DNA from: Moorella humiferrea
GTDB taxonomy: Bacteria; Bacillota; DSM-521; Neomoorellales; Neomoorellaceae
NCBI RefSeq assembly: GCF_039233145.1
Contig: NZ_CP136419.1
Coordinates: forward strand, 2,020,001-2,084,000
Direction: 5' to 3'
Length of the DNA: 64,000 bases
The notes under the pieces were generated by a model. The model ran no database searches and had not been told where the DNA came from. It saw only the letters and a program-made list of their open reading frames with translations. Shown piece by piece: positions 50,970 through 57,426 of this stretch. Positions within the stretch are counted from its first letter, which is position 1. Each line of letters starts with the position of its first letter. The position numbers and the translations under genes were made by a program.

Positions 50970-52825
50970 CAGTTAGCACAGGCCTCCTTCAGGCGTTCAT
51001 AGAGCAGACAGGACCACGGGCTTACGGCAATCTGCACCTCACCCGGCGACACGACCATGGCAGGTGCGGGGCTGCCGTCACCCAGCCAGCGTTCCTCAGC
51101 GGCATCCAATCTTTTTTGCCAGCGTCCCGGCGGGAGCGGCAGGGTAAGGTCCCTGCTGCTGTCGTTAAAGGAGAAAATGAGGCTTACCTCGCTGTCGTCG
51201 CTCCAGCGGCGCACAAACAGGACCCGTTCCTGTTCATAGGCGATGACTTCCATATTTTCCAGATTCAATGCCGCCAGGGGCGAAAGCTGCCGACGCAACT
51301 GAATTAACTGCCGGTAAAATTCCCAGAGAACGCCGTGCCGCCCCTGCCTCCGCAGGTTGAAATTGAGGCGAGAATCCAGAAAGGTGGCTTCCTCCTGGGG
51401 ATCGGGGACCTCGCCTTCCCAATTGTGGTCGGCGAATTCCTGCCGCCGCCCTTCGCGTACCGCCGCCGCCAGTTGCGGGTCGGAATGGCTGGTGAAATAT
51501 AAAAAGGGCGCCGTCTCGGCATACTCTTCACCCATAAACAAAAGGGGGATAAAGGGGGAAAGGAGCACTACGGCAGCCGCCAGTTTGAGCCTGGCAAAAG
51601 GAACCAGCACACTCAACCTTTCCCCCCGGGCACGGTTGCCGACCTGATCGTGATTCTGGACGAAAACTACCAGCCTGTCCCCCCTCGTGAGATGGGGATG
51701 TCGACCATGTCGCCGCTGCCTGTAGGCGGAGTACTGGCCGGTGTAAACATAACCTGTCTTTAAAGCCCGGGCCATGCTGCCCAGGCTACCAAAGTCACGG
51801 TAATAACCATTCCTTTCCCCGGTAAGCAAGGCATGCAGGGCGTGGTGAAAATCGTCACACCACTGGGCGTCCAGATCATACCCCCCAAAACTGGAGGGAC
51901 GGATGAGCCGGGGATCGTTCAGGTCGCTTTCGGCAATGAGGTACACCCGGCGTCCCAACCTTTCTCCCGCATCCTTCACGGCTGATGCCAGTTCCTCTAA
52001 AAAAGGCATGGCGGAATTGTCCATAATGGCATGGACGGCGTCCAAGCGCAGTCCGTCTATATGAAACTCGATCAACCAGTAAAGGGCATTTTCGATAAAA
52101 AAGCGCCGCACCTCGTCGCTGCCCGGACCGTCAAAGTTAAGGGCCGGCCCCCATGGTGTCCGATAACGTTCGGTAAAATAAGGCCCGAAACGGGCCAGGT
52201 AGTTACCTTCCGGGCCCAGATGGTTGTAAACGACGTCGAGAAAAACGGCCAGGCCATGTCCGTGACAGGCGTTTACCAAACGCCGCAGCCCATCCGGCCC
52301 ACCGTAAGAAGCCTGGACAGCAAAGGGAAAAACGCCGTCGTATCCCCAGTTGCGGCTCCCCGGAAACTGGGCCACCGGCATTAATTCAACGGCCGTAACC
52401 CCCAACGCCGTCAAGGTGCCCAGATGGGGAATGACGGCCTCAAAGGTACCTTCAGGAGTAAAAGTGCCTACATGCAGCTCATAAAAAATCAGTTCTTCCA
52501 TGATGGGGCCGCGCCAGCCGGTATCGGACCAGAGAAAGTCTTCTTTAGCCATCACCTGGGACGGTCCGTGGACGCCCTGGGGTTGAAAGCGCGAGGCCGG
52601 GTCCGGCAATTTCTGTCCGTCTAAGATATAGTAGTAAAGGCTACCGGGTTCCACTCCCTCCATCTCGCCCTCATAATAACCCCGTTCCCCAGGGTTTAAA
52701 AACTCCACGCGCTCAGTAGGCGCCACTATCCGTACCGCTACTTCCCTGGCCAGCGGTGCCCAGAGGCGAAAACGGCAGCGTCCCTGGCCCAGGTACGTAG
52801 CCCCCAGGGTAACTCCGTAGGCCAT
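50969..52825 (-). CDS. treZ: Malto-oligosyltrehalose trehalohydrolase
   Basis: A 618-residue GH13 enzyme. The start is ATG 52825, with GAGG upstream and the family N-terminus GATYLGQGRCRFRLWAPLA; a longer frame to 53038 crosses an upstream terminator. FYELHVGTFTPEGTFEAV, VFLDVVYNHLGPEGNY, GLRLDAVHAIMD (nucleophile), LIAESDLNDPRL (acid) and VQNHDQVGNRARGE are all in place. It releases trehalose from maltooligosyltrehalose made by TreY. First gene of the operon. Confidence 0.94.
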   Translation of the reverse strand: MAYGVTLGATYLGQGRCRFRLWAPLAREVAVRIVAPTERVEFLNPGERGYYEGEMEGVEPGSLYYYILDGQKLPDPASRFQPQGVHGPSQVMAKEDFLWSDTGWRGPIMEELIFYELHVGTFTPEGTFEAVIPHLGTLTALGVTAVELMPVAQFPGSRNWGYDGVFPFAVQASYGGPDGLRRLVNACHGHGLAVFLDVVYNHLGPEGNYLARFGPYFTERYRTPWGPALNFDGPGSDEVRRFFIENALYWLIEFHIDGLRLDAVHAIMDNSAMPFLEELASAVKDAGERLGRRVYLIAESDLNDPRLIRPSSFGGYDLDAQWCDDFHHALHALLTGERNGYYRDFGSLGSMARALKTGYVYTGQYSAYRQRRHGRHPHLTRGDRLVVFVQNHDQVGNRARGERLSVLVPFARLKLAAAVVLLSPFIPLLFMGEEYAETAPFLYFTSHSDPQLAAAVREGRRQEFADHNWEGEVPDPQEEATFLDSRLNFNLRRQGRHGVLWEFYRQLIQLRRQLSPLAALNLENMEVIAYEQERVLFVRRWSDDSEVSLIFSFNDSSRDLTLPLPPGRWQKRLDAAEERWLGDGSPAPAMVVSPGEVQIAVSPWSCLLYERLKEACAN

Positions 52826-52964: not shown

Positions 52965-53588
52965 TTAAGCGCCAAAGACCTCGGCGGCCACCCGGAGGCC
53001 GTCGCCGGCGGTAGTGGCAAAGTAATCGGCGCCAGCATACTTTTTCACGGCCTCATCAACGTAGTTGCCACCAATGACCACTTTGGGATACAACCCCGCG
53101 TCGTGAATGGCCTCGACAGTTTCCTTTAGCGCTGCCTGGCAGCTTGTAAGGAGAACGCTCATGCCCACCAATGGCGCTCCCGTCTCCTTTACCGCTTCTA
53201 CAAATTTTTCTTTAGGTACATCCACGCCCAGGTCTACCACATTGTACCCGGCACCTTTAAGGAGCATAATCACGATGTTTTTCCCTAAATCGTGGATGTC
53301 GCCCTTAACCGTGCCGATAACGATAGTCCCCTTATGGCCGGTTCCTTCGCCCTTTAAATAGGGTTCCAAAATATCCATGGCGTTTTTCATGATTTCGCCC
53401 GCCATGACCAGCTCGCTCAAGAAATAGTCACCGCTTTCAAACCGGCTGCCTACCTCGACCATTCCCTCCTGCAGGGCCTTCACGATCTCCAGCGGCGCCG
53501 CCCCGGCGTCCAGAAATTCTTTGACCAGGGCGTCTACCTGGGCTTCTTCTAATTCGGCCATGGCCCGGGCCAATGCATCTTTTTGCAT
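52965..53588 (-). CDS. Corrinoid (B12-binding) methyl-carrier protein
   Basis: A 207-residue protein of the MtaC/MtvC/MttC type. The N-terminal helical cap (ALARAMAELEEAQVDALVKEF and EGMVEVGSRFESGDYFLSELVMAGEIM) is followed by the Rossmann B12 domain with VKGDIHDLGKNIVIMLLKG, whose His ligates cobalt, then VDLGVDVP, SVLLTSC and VIGGNYVDEA. It carries the methyl group between a substrate methyltransferase and tetrahydrofolate. The start is ATG 53588; a GTG four codons earlier is possible, and a frame to 53672 overlaps a small ORF. Second corrinoid protein of this locus. Confidence 0.9.
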   Translation of the reverse strand: MQKDALARAMAELEEAQVDALVKEFLDAGAAPLEIVKALQEGMVEVGSRFESGDYFLSELVMAGEIMKNAMDILEPYLKGEGTGHKGTIVIGTVKGDIHDLGKNIVIMLLKGAGYNVVDLGVDVPKEKFVEAVKETGAPLVGMSVLLTSCQAALKETVEAIHDAGLYPKVVIGGNYVDEAVKKYAGADYFATTAGDGLRVAAEVFGA

Positions 53589-53625
53589 ATTTTGCCACAC
53601 CCTTTCCTTAAATCGATCATCTATT

Positions 53626-53778
53626 CTAACGCTGCACCCAGAACCATATAAAGGCGTAAGCCAAAGCATCAAGACCTGTCCATTCTTTTTTCACGAGCTC
53701 TTCATTGCCTGCTATCGTGCCAAACTCCTTTTTCTTTATGTCCCAGGGTACGCATGTGCCGGCTTCTGGTACGAACAT
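53626..53778 (-). CDS. Hypothetical 50-residue protein in the methyltransferase locus
   Basis: A small ORF found by eye between the UroD-type gene and the corrinoid gene. ATG at 53778 stands behind GGAGGGGATAAG, an excellent ribosome-binding site, and the frame runs to a TAG at 53626. The product begins MFVPEAGTCVPWDIKKKEFG and ends with an aromatic stretch AYAFIWFWVQR. Codon use looks like its neighbours. I do not recognise a family. It could be a small accessory protein of the methyltransferase system. The chance that it is spurious is real, because it is short. Confidence 0.5.
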   Translation of the reverse strand: MFVPEAGTCVPWDIKKKEFGTIAGNEELVKKEWTGLDALAYAFIWFWVQR

Positions 53779-53802
53779 CTTATCCCCTCCATTCCTGTTA
53801 TC

Positions 53803-54975
53803 TTAATACACGCCGTATTCCCGCGCCGCTTCAAGCATGGCCATTATATTTTCCCGTTTGGCATCGCTCATCACCACGCCGCCCGCAGCGAGGATAAAGC
53901 CGCCGTCCCCGGCCAGTTCATCGATGGCTTTCTTTACGCAGTCCTTTACTTCCTGGGGCGTACCGTAGGTTAAAAGGGTGGTGGGAACGCCGCCGTACAG
54001 GCAGAAACGCCCGCCCAAAACTGCCTTCGCCTTCTTGGCGTCGGTTAAATCGATGCAGAAAACAATGCTCTTATCCGGCAGTTCGGCTATCTTTTCCAGA
54101 TAAGGCGTCCAGTCTCCTTCGGCAAAGAAGAATGTCCTCTTCCTCATGGACCAAAGGCCTTCAATCACTGCCTTCCAGGTGGGCCAATAATACTTCTCCC
54201 AGAAGGCGGGGCTCAAGAAAGGATAAGCACCTTTATGCAGAGGGGCAAAGCAGGGAAACGTTGTGTCTCCGGCGGCGGTAATCATGGCGTAGGCAATATT
54301 GTGGGGGACGATAGCCTCACAGGCGGCCACTACCTTATCCGGCCGCCGCCTGAGATCTACCAGTATTCCCTTCGTACCCCGGAGGGCATCGCCCAGCGTA
54401 TCGAAGGGGGCTTTGGTCATGCCTGAAGTGGCAGGCACTACAGCGTATTCCTTTGCCCATTTTTCCGAGGCTCTGGCCATCTTGTCGTTGTGCATGGCAA
54501 AGGCGGCGGCGCCTTTTACCAGGGCCACGCTGGCACGGTAGGAGCCCGGTTCGCTGAATTCCCCGCATATCCGCGGCAGGTATTTAGTTGCCAGCCAGTA
54601 AGTCGGATTGGCGATAAACTCATCGTAATCTTCAGCTTTCATATACTCTTCTTCTATATATTGAAAACCAGAATTTTCCTCAAAATAGATGCCCGGGAAT
54701 TTATACAGCTTGCAGCCGATGGCGTCGAACATGGGCGGCCACCACAAGTTGGGGGAACCGAACATAGTGTCAAAATCCAAATCCTTTATCAGGTCGCTGA
54801 TTATGGCCGTGGATTTATCTACGTCGTAGTATATTTCCTGCATGTTGGTGTCGGTGTATTTGACGAACCATTCACCGATGGGAAACACGACGGGAACTTT
54901 GTCCGGCTTGCCGCAGTCCAGGGCCGTCGTGTAACGTGCAAACCTTTCTTGATAAAGCTTTTCCTTATCGCTCAT
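53803..54975 (-). CDS. UroD-fold substrate methyltransferase (MtvB-like)
   Basis: A 390-residue protein of the UroD superfamily, ending ENIMAMLEAAREYGVY as these proteins do. It differs from MtaA-type members: where they have HxCG, it has AEGDW (about residues 285-289). A Cys follows at about 325 in GGRFCLYGG. So any metal site would use Glu/Asp plus Cys. Related proteins in Moorella and other acetogens act as methyltransferase I on methoxylated aromatics or similar substrates (MtvB). Upstream GGAGGG precedes the ATG. Flanked by a methyl-THF methyltransferase and two corrinoid proteins, it is the best candidate for the substrate-demethylating enzyme. Confidence 0.85.
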   Translation of the reverse strand: MSDKEKLYQERFARYTTALDCGKPDKVPVVFPIGEWFVKYTDTNMQEIYYDVDKSTAIISDLIKDLDFDTMFGSPNLWWPPMFDAIGCKLYKFPGIYFEENSGFQYIEEEYMKAEDYDEFIANPTYWLATKYLPRICGEFSEPGSYRASVALVKGAAAFAMHNDKMARASEKWAKEYAVVPATSGMTKAPFDTLGDALRGTKGILVDLRRRPDKVVAACEAIVPHNIAYAMITAAGDTTFPCFAPLHKGAYPFLSPAFWEKYYWPTWKAVIEGLWSMRKRTFFFAEGDWTPYLEKIAELPDKSIVFCIDLTDAKKAKAVLGGRFCLYGGVPTTLLTYGTPQEVKDCVKKAIDELAGDGGFILAAGGVVMSDAKRENIMAMLEAAREYGVY

Positions 54976-55073
54976 TTTCTAATTCCCTCCCTGGTCTAGA
55001 ATAAAAAGCCCGGTTCGAACCCTGTCTTCTTCTATTGCCTTACCCGTCACCTCCTTATAACCCCAATATCATG

Positions 55074-55871
55074 TTAATCCTCAAGGGCGCCGGCCCGGTA
55101 GGCTTTTAAAAATCTTTTACCGAAGGGATCGTTACCCATTAATAAATCTACCGTCGTCAGCAAAGTCATGATTTTGGCATCCAGGGGATCGAGGATGGCG
55201 GCGTCCATGCCGTGGGCCATGCATATGGCCAGAAAATAACGATTGATTAGCCTTCTCTTGGGCATGTTGAAAGAAATGTTACTCAAACCCGATACCGTTT
55301 TTACCTTAAATTGACGCTTAATTTCCGTAAGGCACTGGAAAAACATTAAAGCATTGGTATGATTGACGGCCAGGGGCAGCACCAGGGGATCGATGTACAG
55401 CTTCTCCAGATCATAACCATGGCGGGAAAGGATTTCTATCAACTTCTCGGCGATTTTGAGCCTGTCCGCCACTGTCTTGGGAATGCCGTTGTCATCTACC
55501 GTTAGTCCGATTACCGGACAGCCGTGCTCCAATACGAGGGGCAATATACCCTCCAGGCGACTCTTTTCCATAGATATGGAATTGATTATAATTGCGCTTT
55601 TATCGCCCTTTAAGACCGCCAGGGCTTTTTTAACGGCGGCCGGTGAGGTACTGTCAATGCACAGGGGTACCTCCGTCGCCTCCTGAACCGCTTGAACCAG
55701 CCACTCCATATCGGCTTCTTCGTTGCAGTGGGCCGTATTGACATCCAAATAAGCAGCTCCCGCCGCCGCCTGCCTGCGGGCGAGTTCCTGTACAGCGGCT
55801 TTGTCCTTATCGTTGATGATTTGGCGGATTGCCGGTATGGCGCTGTTCAATTTTTCTCCGATGATAAGCAC
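55074..55871 (-). CDS. Methyltetrahydrofolate:corrinoid methyltransferase (MtvA/AcsE-like)
   Basis: A 265-residue pterin-binding TIM-barrel protein (DHPS-like). IIGEKLNSAIPAIRQI at the N-terminus, AYLDVNTAHCNEEADMEWLV with the Asn-Thr pterin contacts, LCIDSTSPAAVKKAL and KTVSGLSNISFNMPKR are conserved in AcsE/MtvA/MtgA. It moves the methyl group from the corrinoid protein to tetrahydrofolate, feeding the Wood-Ljungdahl pathway. Start GTG at 55871 with GGAGG nine bases upstream. Gap of 143 bases to the upstream corrinoid gene holds an operator-like palindrome, so it may be a separate transcript start. Confidence 0.9.
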   Translation of the reverse strand: MLIIGEKLNSAIPAIRQIINDKDKAAVQELARRQAAAGAAYLDVNTAHCNEEADMEWLVQAVQEATEVPLCIDSTSPAAVKKALAVLKGDKSAIIINSISMEKSRLEGILPLVLEHGCPVIGLTVDDNGIPKTVADRLKIAEKLIEILSRHGYDLEKLYIDPLVLPLAVNHTNALMFFQCLTEIKRQFKVKTVSGLSNISFNMPKRRLINRYFLAICMAHGMDAAILDPLDAKIMTLLTTVDLLMGNDPFGKRFLKAYRAGALED

Positions 55872-55947
55872 TGGTTTACGCCTCCAATCTATTTACCATG
55901 TTAAAAACCCATCCAATATTGTGGTAGTTCCGGTATACTTATCTACC

Positions 55948-55957
55948 TGTATATACA
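55948..55957. promoter_or_regulatory. Candidate GntR operator TGTATATACA
   Basis: A perfect 10-bp palindrome upstream of the methyl-THF methyltransferase gene. A related TTGTATAAAA lies in the leader of the GntR gene at about 57466 (minus strand). Both could be bound by the GntR protein encoded upstream. Confidence 0.4.
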
Positions 55958-55995
55958 AATATATTCTATGCATTTCCGAGAATTCCTTCTTATTC

Positions 55996-56012
55996 AGGTG
56001 AAAAAATCACCT
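55996..56012. other. Short hairpin after the first corrinoid gene
   Basis: AGGTGA (55996-56001) pairs with TCACCT (56007-56012) around a five-base A/T loop, directly after the stop at 56015. No good T run, so it is weak as a terminator. Confidence 0.35.
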
Positions 56013-56014
56013 CT

Positions 56015-56659
56015 TTAGGTTAAAAGGCGCATCCCCAGCCAGCGCCGGCAGACGGCCACCCCTTCCACGGCCTCCCGTACCCAAGCATCGGCACCCACAT
56101 AGCGGCAGACGCGTTCGTCCACCAGGCCCCCGATAACCACCTTGACCTCCTGCCCTACCGCCGCCGTACGTACCTTTTGGACGGTGCGGCGCATGGCTTC
56201 AAAAGAAGTAGAGAGGAGGGCCGACAACCCTAAAACCCTGGCTCCCGTCTGTTTAACGATGTTTAAAAACTCCTCTGGCGGGATATCCACTCCGGCATCA
56301 AAAACGCGAAAGCCTTCACATCTCAAGAGGGATATGGTGATGTTTTTACCGATGTCGTGGATGTCCCCTTCCACCGTACCAAAAACAATATCGGCCCGTT
56401 CCGGCTGTCCGGAAGAAATGGGGGGAGATGCCAGAAAGGGATCAAGGATTCCCAGCACTTCCTGAAAGATTTCCGCCGACATCACCAGGTCACATAAAAA
56501 ATATTCTCCTGCCGCGTAACGATCGCCGACCATTTTCATTCCCTGCCGGCACTCTTCTATTATCGTTAGGGGCGCTACCTGTTCGTTAAGGGCCTTCCTC
56601 ACCAGTTCCAGGACTCTCTTTTCCTCTAATTCCGCCATCGCCAGGGTTAAGGGACCCAA
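56015..56659 (-). CDS. Corrinoid (B12-binding) methyl-carrier protein, first copy
   Basis: A 214-residue protein with the same layout as the corrinoid protein at 52965. Helical cap AMAELEEKRVLELVRKAL and GDRYAAGEYFLCDLVMSAEIF; B12 site VEGDIHDIGKNITISLLRC; then FDAGVDIPPEEF, SALLSTSF and VIGGLVDERVC. The start appears to be TTG 56659 behind GGGAGGGGG; an ATG seven codons in is the alternative. It follows the GntR gene by 35 bases on the same strand. Two carriers in one locus suggest either two substrates or two partner methyltransferases. Confidence 0.88.
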   Translation of the reverse strand: MGPLTLAMAELEEKRVLELVRKALNEQVAPLTIIEECRQGMKMVGDRYAAGEYFLCDLVMSAEIFQEVLGILDPFLASPPISSGQPERADIVFGTVEGDIHDIGKNITISLLRCEGFRVFDAGVDIPPEEFLNIVKQTGARVLGLSALLSTSFEAMRRTVQKVRTAAVGQEVKVVIGGLVDERVCRYVGADAWVREAVEGVAVCRRWLGMRLLT

Positions 56660-56694
56660 AAAAACACCCCCTCCCTTTTACGATTCGCAGCCGG

Positions 56695-57426
56695 CTAAAT
56701 CGTAGCTGTGACCGAGGTCAATTGATACCGGTCCCCACGGTAAAGGCACCATCCCCAACCTACCGGCCGATTGTCGGCCGCCAGCAAAAACTGTTCCACC
56801 AAAAAAGCCGGGGAACCGGGAGAAGTGCGTAAGGCACGGGCCTCTTCTTCATTGAGATTTGTCACTTTTAAAATCATTTTGCTGCTCATTGGCAGGGCGG
56901 CGGCGTGCTTTTCCAGTATATCGGGAAAAGCCTGATACTGGAGTTCGTTTTCCAGAATCGGCCTTCCTTGGTCGTAACGCAGATATTTACGGTCATATGC
57001 CAGGGGCTCGCCGTCGGTCAGGAGGGTGCGGCGAACAAATAGGACTTTTGTTCCCTGGCGTACTTGAAGCATGGCTGCCGCCTTTTCCGGGGCGGGTACC
57101 AGCCGGGCCTCCAGGAGCCGGGAGCTTGCGGCCATGCCCCGGGCAGCCGCATCCTTGTGGAACTCCTCCATGACAAAAACCGCCCGGTCTAACTCGGGTC
57201 GGGAGACAAAGGTGCCCTTTCCCCGTTCGGCACGGATGAGACCGGCTCTGATCAGGTGACTCAAGCTGCGGCGGACGGTCATGCGGCTTAATCCGTATTT
57301 TTCACTCAATTCCGCCTCGGAGGGTAACGCTTCACCCGGTCGGTAGGCGCCAGTCTTTATTTGGTGTTCCAGGATCTGGGCTAGTTGGTAATAAGGAGGC
57401 ACAAAGGAATTTTTGTCTATGGCCAT
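56695..57426 (-). CDS. GntR-family regulator of the methyltransferase locus
   Basis: A 243-residue HutC-type regulator. Winged helix: PPYYQLAQILEHQIKTG, ELSEKYGLSRMTVRRSLSHL, AERGKGTFVSRPE. UTRA domain: VLFVRRTLLTDGEPLAYDRKYLRY and GWGWCLYRGDRYQL. The ATG at 57426 has GAGGTGG seven bases upstream. It is the first gene of the locus and so likely senses the methylated substrate or a product. More distant from the three GntR proteins in the first 14 kb. Confidence 0.9.
   Translation of the reverse strand: MAIDKNSFVPPYYQLAQILEHQIKTGAYRPGEALPSEAELSEKYGLSRMTVRRSLSHLIRAGLIRAERGKGTFVSRPELDRAVFVMEEFHKDAAARGMAASSRLLEARLVPAPEKAAAMLQVRQGTKVLFVRRTLLTDGEPLAYDRKYLRYDQGRPILENELQYQAFPDILEKHAAALPMSSKMILKVTNLNEEEARALRTSPGSPAFLVEQFLLAADNRPVGWGWCLYRGDRYQLTSVTATI

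Follow-up and report, generated by a model that had tools for sequence, protein, structure and literature searches.

The locus at positions 52965-57426 of the analyzed Moorella humiferrea DNA probably represents an O-demethylase operon of the MtvABC type of Moorella, with a small additional subunit, repression by a GntR-family protein, and a second corrinoid protein as the partner of this regulator. The analyzed stretch (NZ_CP136419.1, GCF_039233145.1), herein referred to as the window, has 64,000 nucleotides (G000:C1:2020001-2084000) and belongs to a genome assembled as one contig of 2,671,946 bases. By sequence comparison, the operon appears to be of a known type; its newly seen parts would be a 50-residue second piece of the substrate:corrinoid methyltransferase (MTI) and a regulator-linked B12 protein.

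All genes of the locus are located on the minus strand in the order GntR-C2-A-B-50-residue gene-C1. Domain searches recovered the five genes proposed in the initial annotation, which described a corrinoid methyltransferase locus with its own GntR regulator. The regulator (56695-57426), a probable repressor of the operon, has the two domains of HutC-like proteins, GntR (PF00392, 74.9 bits) and UTRA (PF07702, 103.4 bits). Gene A (55074-55871) encodes an MtvA-like methyl-corrinoid:tetrahydrofolate methyltransferase (MTII), as annotated initially, with matches to PF00809 and to NF005719 above the cut-off (324 bits, cut-off 259). Gene B (53803-54975) encodes a UroD-fold MTI of the MtvB type (PF01208, 74 bits), presumably its large subunit. 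The 50-residue frame (53626-53778) between B and C1 was missed in the initial annotation and is preceded by a ribosome-binding-site-like sequence. C1 (52965-53588), an MtvC-like methyl carrier, and C2 (56015-56659) match PF02607 and PF02310, and both have the cobalamin-binding motif DxHxxG. The C1 start at 53588 (207 residues, as in the orthologues) is more likely than the open-frame start at 53672. The neighboring GH13 frame overlaps C1 only through the choice of the first start codon, and a start near 52825 abolishes this overlap.

Kinship to the Mtv Systems

The segment A-B-(small gene)-C1 (52965-55871) brings together an MTII, a UroD-fold MTI, and a corrinoid carrier, the three components of Mtv-type systems. 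Genome G005, which we take to be that of M. thermoacetica DSM 521, has two A-B-C1 sets, one at 303-308 kb and the other at 1255-1258 kb, and these sets are 73-80% identical to the genes of the window. From gene order and the positions of known genes, both sets were mapped by position to Mothe_c03140-03190 and c13000-13030; AcsE, the activase, and mtaA1C1 served to calibrate the locus numbers. The genes in these ranges were named mtvA, mtvB, and mtvC, the labels being unevenly distributed in the text (PMC13391211). One mtvABC set is reported in each of the new Moorella isolates, among them M. humiferrea, whose strain OCP was isolated from a vanillate enrichment (PMC11328732). Identity of B in the Moorella genomes carrying the operon is about 71-86% (77-86% in most), and identity of A in the Moorella relatives is 73-79%. 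The initial annotation had set beforehand that near identity to mtvABC, with vanillate as inducer, would make the locus a known one; the kinship half of this largely holds, at 73-80% identity.

The operon is best read as encoding an O-demethylase for methoxylated aromatics. B together with the 50-residue subunit would bind a methoxylated aromatic compound (e.g., vanillate or syringate) and transfer its methyl group to the Co(I) of C1. A would then transfer the methyl group from methyl-C1 to tetrahydrofolate and so to the Wood-Ljungdahl pathway, a route already suggested in the initial annotation and supported as a reading of the operon. The cobalt would be kept reduced by a corrinoid activase whose gene lies elsewhere in the genome. 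One match for a RACo-type activase (G000:C1:2268962-2269711) is interrupted by an in-frame TAA, and the G005 counterpart by a TGA and a TAA; the gene may be decayed or have a frame break.

The operon shares with the M. thermoacetica MtvABC systems the three enzyme types, arranged as A-B-C1, and an MTI without the HxCG zinc site; no zinc was reported for the M. thermoacetica enzyme (PMC13222342). The small second polypeptide is also encoded in the DSM 521 sets, and no description of it was found in the literature searched. In contrast to the Mtv loci, A-B-C1 here lies directly behind GntR-C2, and B', the second MTI of the relatives, is absent. The MtoABCD system of Methermicoccus shengliensis likewise uses an Mtv-related MT1 and a corrinoid protein, which demethylate methoxybenzoates (PMC8630106); it is archaeal and is likened here by description only.

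GntR Regulator and Its Corrinoid Partner

Homologues of the GntR regulator (35-84% identical) were found in 49 of the 399 Bacillota genomes surveyed, and 61 loci were examined. A corrinoid gene directly follows the regulator gene in all 61 loci, with spacing from -108 to +198 nucleotides, and DxHxxG is kept in each of the 61 proteins. About ten of these pairs have no UroD enzyme within reach on the same strand. The window has three further GntR genes (27-29% identity), none with a corrinoid gene behind it. In a tree, one branch (SH-aLRT 78; 0 of 500 label shuffles as low) splits the 61 GntR-linked proteins from 59 further corrinoid proteins encoded at these loci, and C1, whose orthologues adjoin B and the small gene, falls in the carrier clade. 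A more careful tree of 56 corrinoid proteins has one or two changes between the GntR-linked and the carrier types. Given the linkage in 61 of 61 loci and the single-branch separation, the GntR-corrinoid pair is, as judged from these genomes, a conserved module distinct from the methyl carriers. No relevant description of such a pair was found in the literature searched. The regulator shares the GntR and UTRA domains with the HutC subfamily and stands apart in being obligately linked to a gene for a corrinoid protein, a linkage that is not known from any described UTRA-type member.

The arrangement around the pair varies among the relatives. Genomes G014 and G016 have GntR-C2-B'-A-B-small gene-C1, and a short contig of M. 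stamsii has C2-B'-A-B. At the corresponding chromosomal site, G001 and G004 have GntR-C2-B' beside genes for a carbohydrate-binding module (CBM) protein and LplA (CBM-LplA), and A-B-small gene-C1 is located elsewhere; in G001, a GH13 gene is found on the other side of this site. B' was not found in the M. humiferrea genome, and no remnants of it were recognized among the matches listed for the 143-nucleotide gap between A and C2. The simplest history suggested by these arrangements is that B' was lost from a six-gene cluster. A search of plasmid records for the named relatives yielded only two weak matches.

The initial annotation treated the two corrinoid proteins as two B12 carriers. Both are indeed present with DxHxxG; their equivalence is probably wrong, with C1 belonging to the substrate enzyme and C2 to the regulator. 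It is quite conceivable, if short of probable, that C2 is a second methyl carrier left over from the deletion of its substrate enzyme B' and now redundant or shared with B. C2 adjoins B' in G014 and G016, B' is missing here, and DxHxxG is retained. However, GntR-C2 pairs that lack B' are common in genomes other than those of Moorella, about ten of the 61 pairs lack a reachable UroD enzyme, and the invariably kept pair has corrinoid proteins that form their own lineage. A merely orphaned carrier was our first reading of C2, and it was lowered by the pairs without B' in the phylum survey. As the obligate genetic partner of GntR, C2 would more likely take part in sensing or regulation than serve as a second bulk carrier. 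In a more specific and tentative form of this proposal, GntR and C2 would be a signaling unit, in which the methylated or redox state of C2 reports methyl availability to the UTRA-type repressor, next to a two-subunit MTI that arose by a single gene fission.

Some pairs have other surroundings. One lies among molybdenum-cofactor genes with only an MTII beside it. In loci L171 and L181, the pairs adjoin one further protein, presumably DUF1638-like, instead of a same-strand UroD enzyme. At L197:4107-4766, the GntR-linked corrinoid gene continues in frame into a UroD gene, apparently through an internal deletion.

Putative Operator and Promoter-Like Block

In the relatives, a conserved putative operator, TGTATATACA, is located before A or B. 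Counts of palindromic 8-mers were made in 350-nucleotide upstream windows. The 8-mer GTATATAC ranks first before A (6 of 22 windows, with 0.11 expected), shares the first rank before GntR (5 of 61 windows, with 0.19 expected), and is over-represented before B (4 windows, with 0.12 expected). It fits the GT-N-TA-N-AC operator type of the HutC subfamily. In the M. humiferrea genome, the putative operator TGTATATACAGGTA (55944-55957), which the initial annotation also missed, is the sole site with at most one mismatch; the GTNTANAC-type operator expected for a UTRA-type GntR protein at its target promoter is thus present before A as a sequence conserved in the relatives. Moorella genomes in which the GntR gene lies at another locus still have it upstream of A.

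A promoter-like block, AGAAGGAATT-N12-TAGAAT (55963-55990), was found upstream of A, with the same spacing in L008, L009, L041, L046, L047, and L050. This block tentatively resembles a sporulation-type sigma-H promoter. Across Moorella, GTATATAC is located downstream of a AGNAGGAATT-N12-TAGAAT block. An operator just downstream of a -10-like box suggests repression; the UTRA-type GntR protein would repress the operon from the GTATATAC operator at this position before A.

Substrate Enzyme and Its Possible Substrates

The initial annotation noted that AEGDW stands in B in place of the zinc-binding HxCG motif, which was confirmed by aligning B with over 40 relatives of the UroD fold. The description of B as an unusual substrate enzyme did not hold, since AEG(D/N)W is the rule among the close orthologues and zinc-free relatives, CdmB and the M. 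thermoacetica O-demethylase, are already published (PMC13222342). AEGDW was accordingly rejected as a novelty. Proteins of the B' type have AEGGY or similar at this position, whereas HSCG does occur in two further UroD proteins of the M. humiferrea genome. Besides HxCG, B lacks the zinc spacings E-X14-E-X20-H and D-X27-C-X39-C, and it scores far below the cut-offs of the MtaA and MtbA NCBIfam models. The residues H247 and E286 are invariant across B and B' and recur in more remote forms of B with a C-terminal extension. An AlphaFold2 model of B has the UroD fold (pLDDT 86.8, pTM 0.88), and its best Foldseek matches are UroD enzymes. CdmB was not among these matches, the library used (ending April 2026) probably being too early.

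Among the alternatives to a methoxylated aromatic, a non-aromatic methoxylated compound, or a methylated amine or sulfide, is unlikely. The operon is flanked by trehalose/glycogen-type genes and a CBM gene, and no aromatic genes were recognized adjoining it. Its gene neighborhood, however, differs in most relatives, which suggests that the sugar genes are neighbors of the site and not partners. The MTIs known for amines and betaine come from other families, which counts against these substrates.

Still less probable is that B acts on a small methyl donor, for instance a haloalkane such as chloromethane. This possibility is raised by CdmB of the Acetobacterium dehalogenans CdmBCA system (PDB 9rui), the closest and only solved relative of B found by sequence (E 1e-32). 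Both proteins are UroD-fold MTIs without HxCG that work, or would work, with a separate corrinoid protein and an MTII, and CdmB is zinc-free (PMC13222342). However, identity between B and CdmB is about 28% in the part that aligns, and B does not have the active-site residues of CdmB: CdmB has W/Y in place of H247 and Q in place of E286, the polar residues kept in B, and it lacks the C-terminal module. The two proteins fall into different clades, although CdmB is a long branch there and its placement is unsure. No regulatory system was identified for Cdm. The closest described systems are Mtv, the motif is ordinary for the group, and the polar pocket of H247 and E286 argues for an ether substrate over a haloalkane. 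A methoxylated aromatic is preferred here for B.

Small Protein Encoded after B

The 399 genomes were searched with a profile of 13 small proteins and with B itself. A small gene was found 16-107 nucleotides downstream of all 29 B genes of at least 50% identity. In 14 of 20 remoter relatives of B, the small sequence follows in frame as a C-terminal extension; two of these 14 carry one counted stop inside. No match of the profile was found away from B anywhere in these genomes, and no relative of the 50-residue protein was found in Pfam, NCBIfam, or PDB. Comparison of the window with the relatives gave pN/pS of 0.12-0.22 at near-saturated synonymous sites, a ratio at which the small gene is under purifying selection. 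That the frame is a chance or independent one, unlinked to B, is hardly credible: it is very short and unmatched in the libraries, but the adjacency in 29 of 29 cases, the in-frame extension of B, the pN/pS values, and the upstream ribosome-binding-site-like sequence stand against this.

Based on the adjacency, in-frame extension, exclusivity, and purifying selection of the small sequence, the substrate enzyme looks split, with the 50-residue protein as its small second subunit. A 58-row tree places the extended forms on basal branches and gathers the free form into one clade (31 rows, one clipped by a contig end), a pattern that fits a single gene fission. In the AlphaFold model of an extended relative (pTM 0.89), the module forms two helices (416-423 and 430-450; pLDDT about 80). 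Loop 93-108, disordered in the model of B alone, is ordered in this model; the sequences and alignments differ, and the ordering is suggestive only. No relevant description of a small MTI subunit was found in the literature searched.

In G005, the two small-gene copies (L041 and L040) are identical over the 49 codons compared and the adjacent C1 genes are nearly so, whereas B differs between the two loci. This near-identity may stem from a recent duplication or from gene conversion.

Assessment and Significance

Several points weigh against the O-demethylase operon as described above. The locus is known here only from its sequence: comparison shows the family membership, the gene linkage, the in-frame extension, the conserved operator sequence, and the absence of B', whereas the substrate, the contact between the subunits, repression, and the sensor role are inferred. 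The link to vanillate depends on locus numbers given in jumbled order in the source (PMC13391211), and related UroD enzymes, such as CdmB, can take haloalkanes. The branch separating the GntR-linked proteins has an SH-aLRT support of only 78%, and with its cobalamin-binding DxHxxG, C2 could be a second carrier. Finally, the small protein may be dispensable in vitro, because the published M. thermoacetica system is called three-component.

Through O-demethylase systems, methyl groups derived from lignin enter acetogenesis, and in the gut such systems act on drugs and plant compounds. A. dehalogenans alone has 26 systems for methylated compounds, and the regulation of their conversion is largely unexplored (PMC13222342). 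The regulator-corrinoid pairing in 61 of 61 loci offers a direct proposal for how such systems sense their substrates. An overlooked MTI subunit, if real, would be important wherever MtvB-type enzymes are to be expressed or their structures solved.

Elsewhere in the window, another UroD-fold protein (570-1712), which bears HSCG, ends a cluster of sugar ABC-transporter and GntR genes and likely belongs to a separate system.

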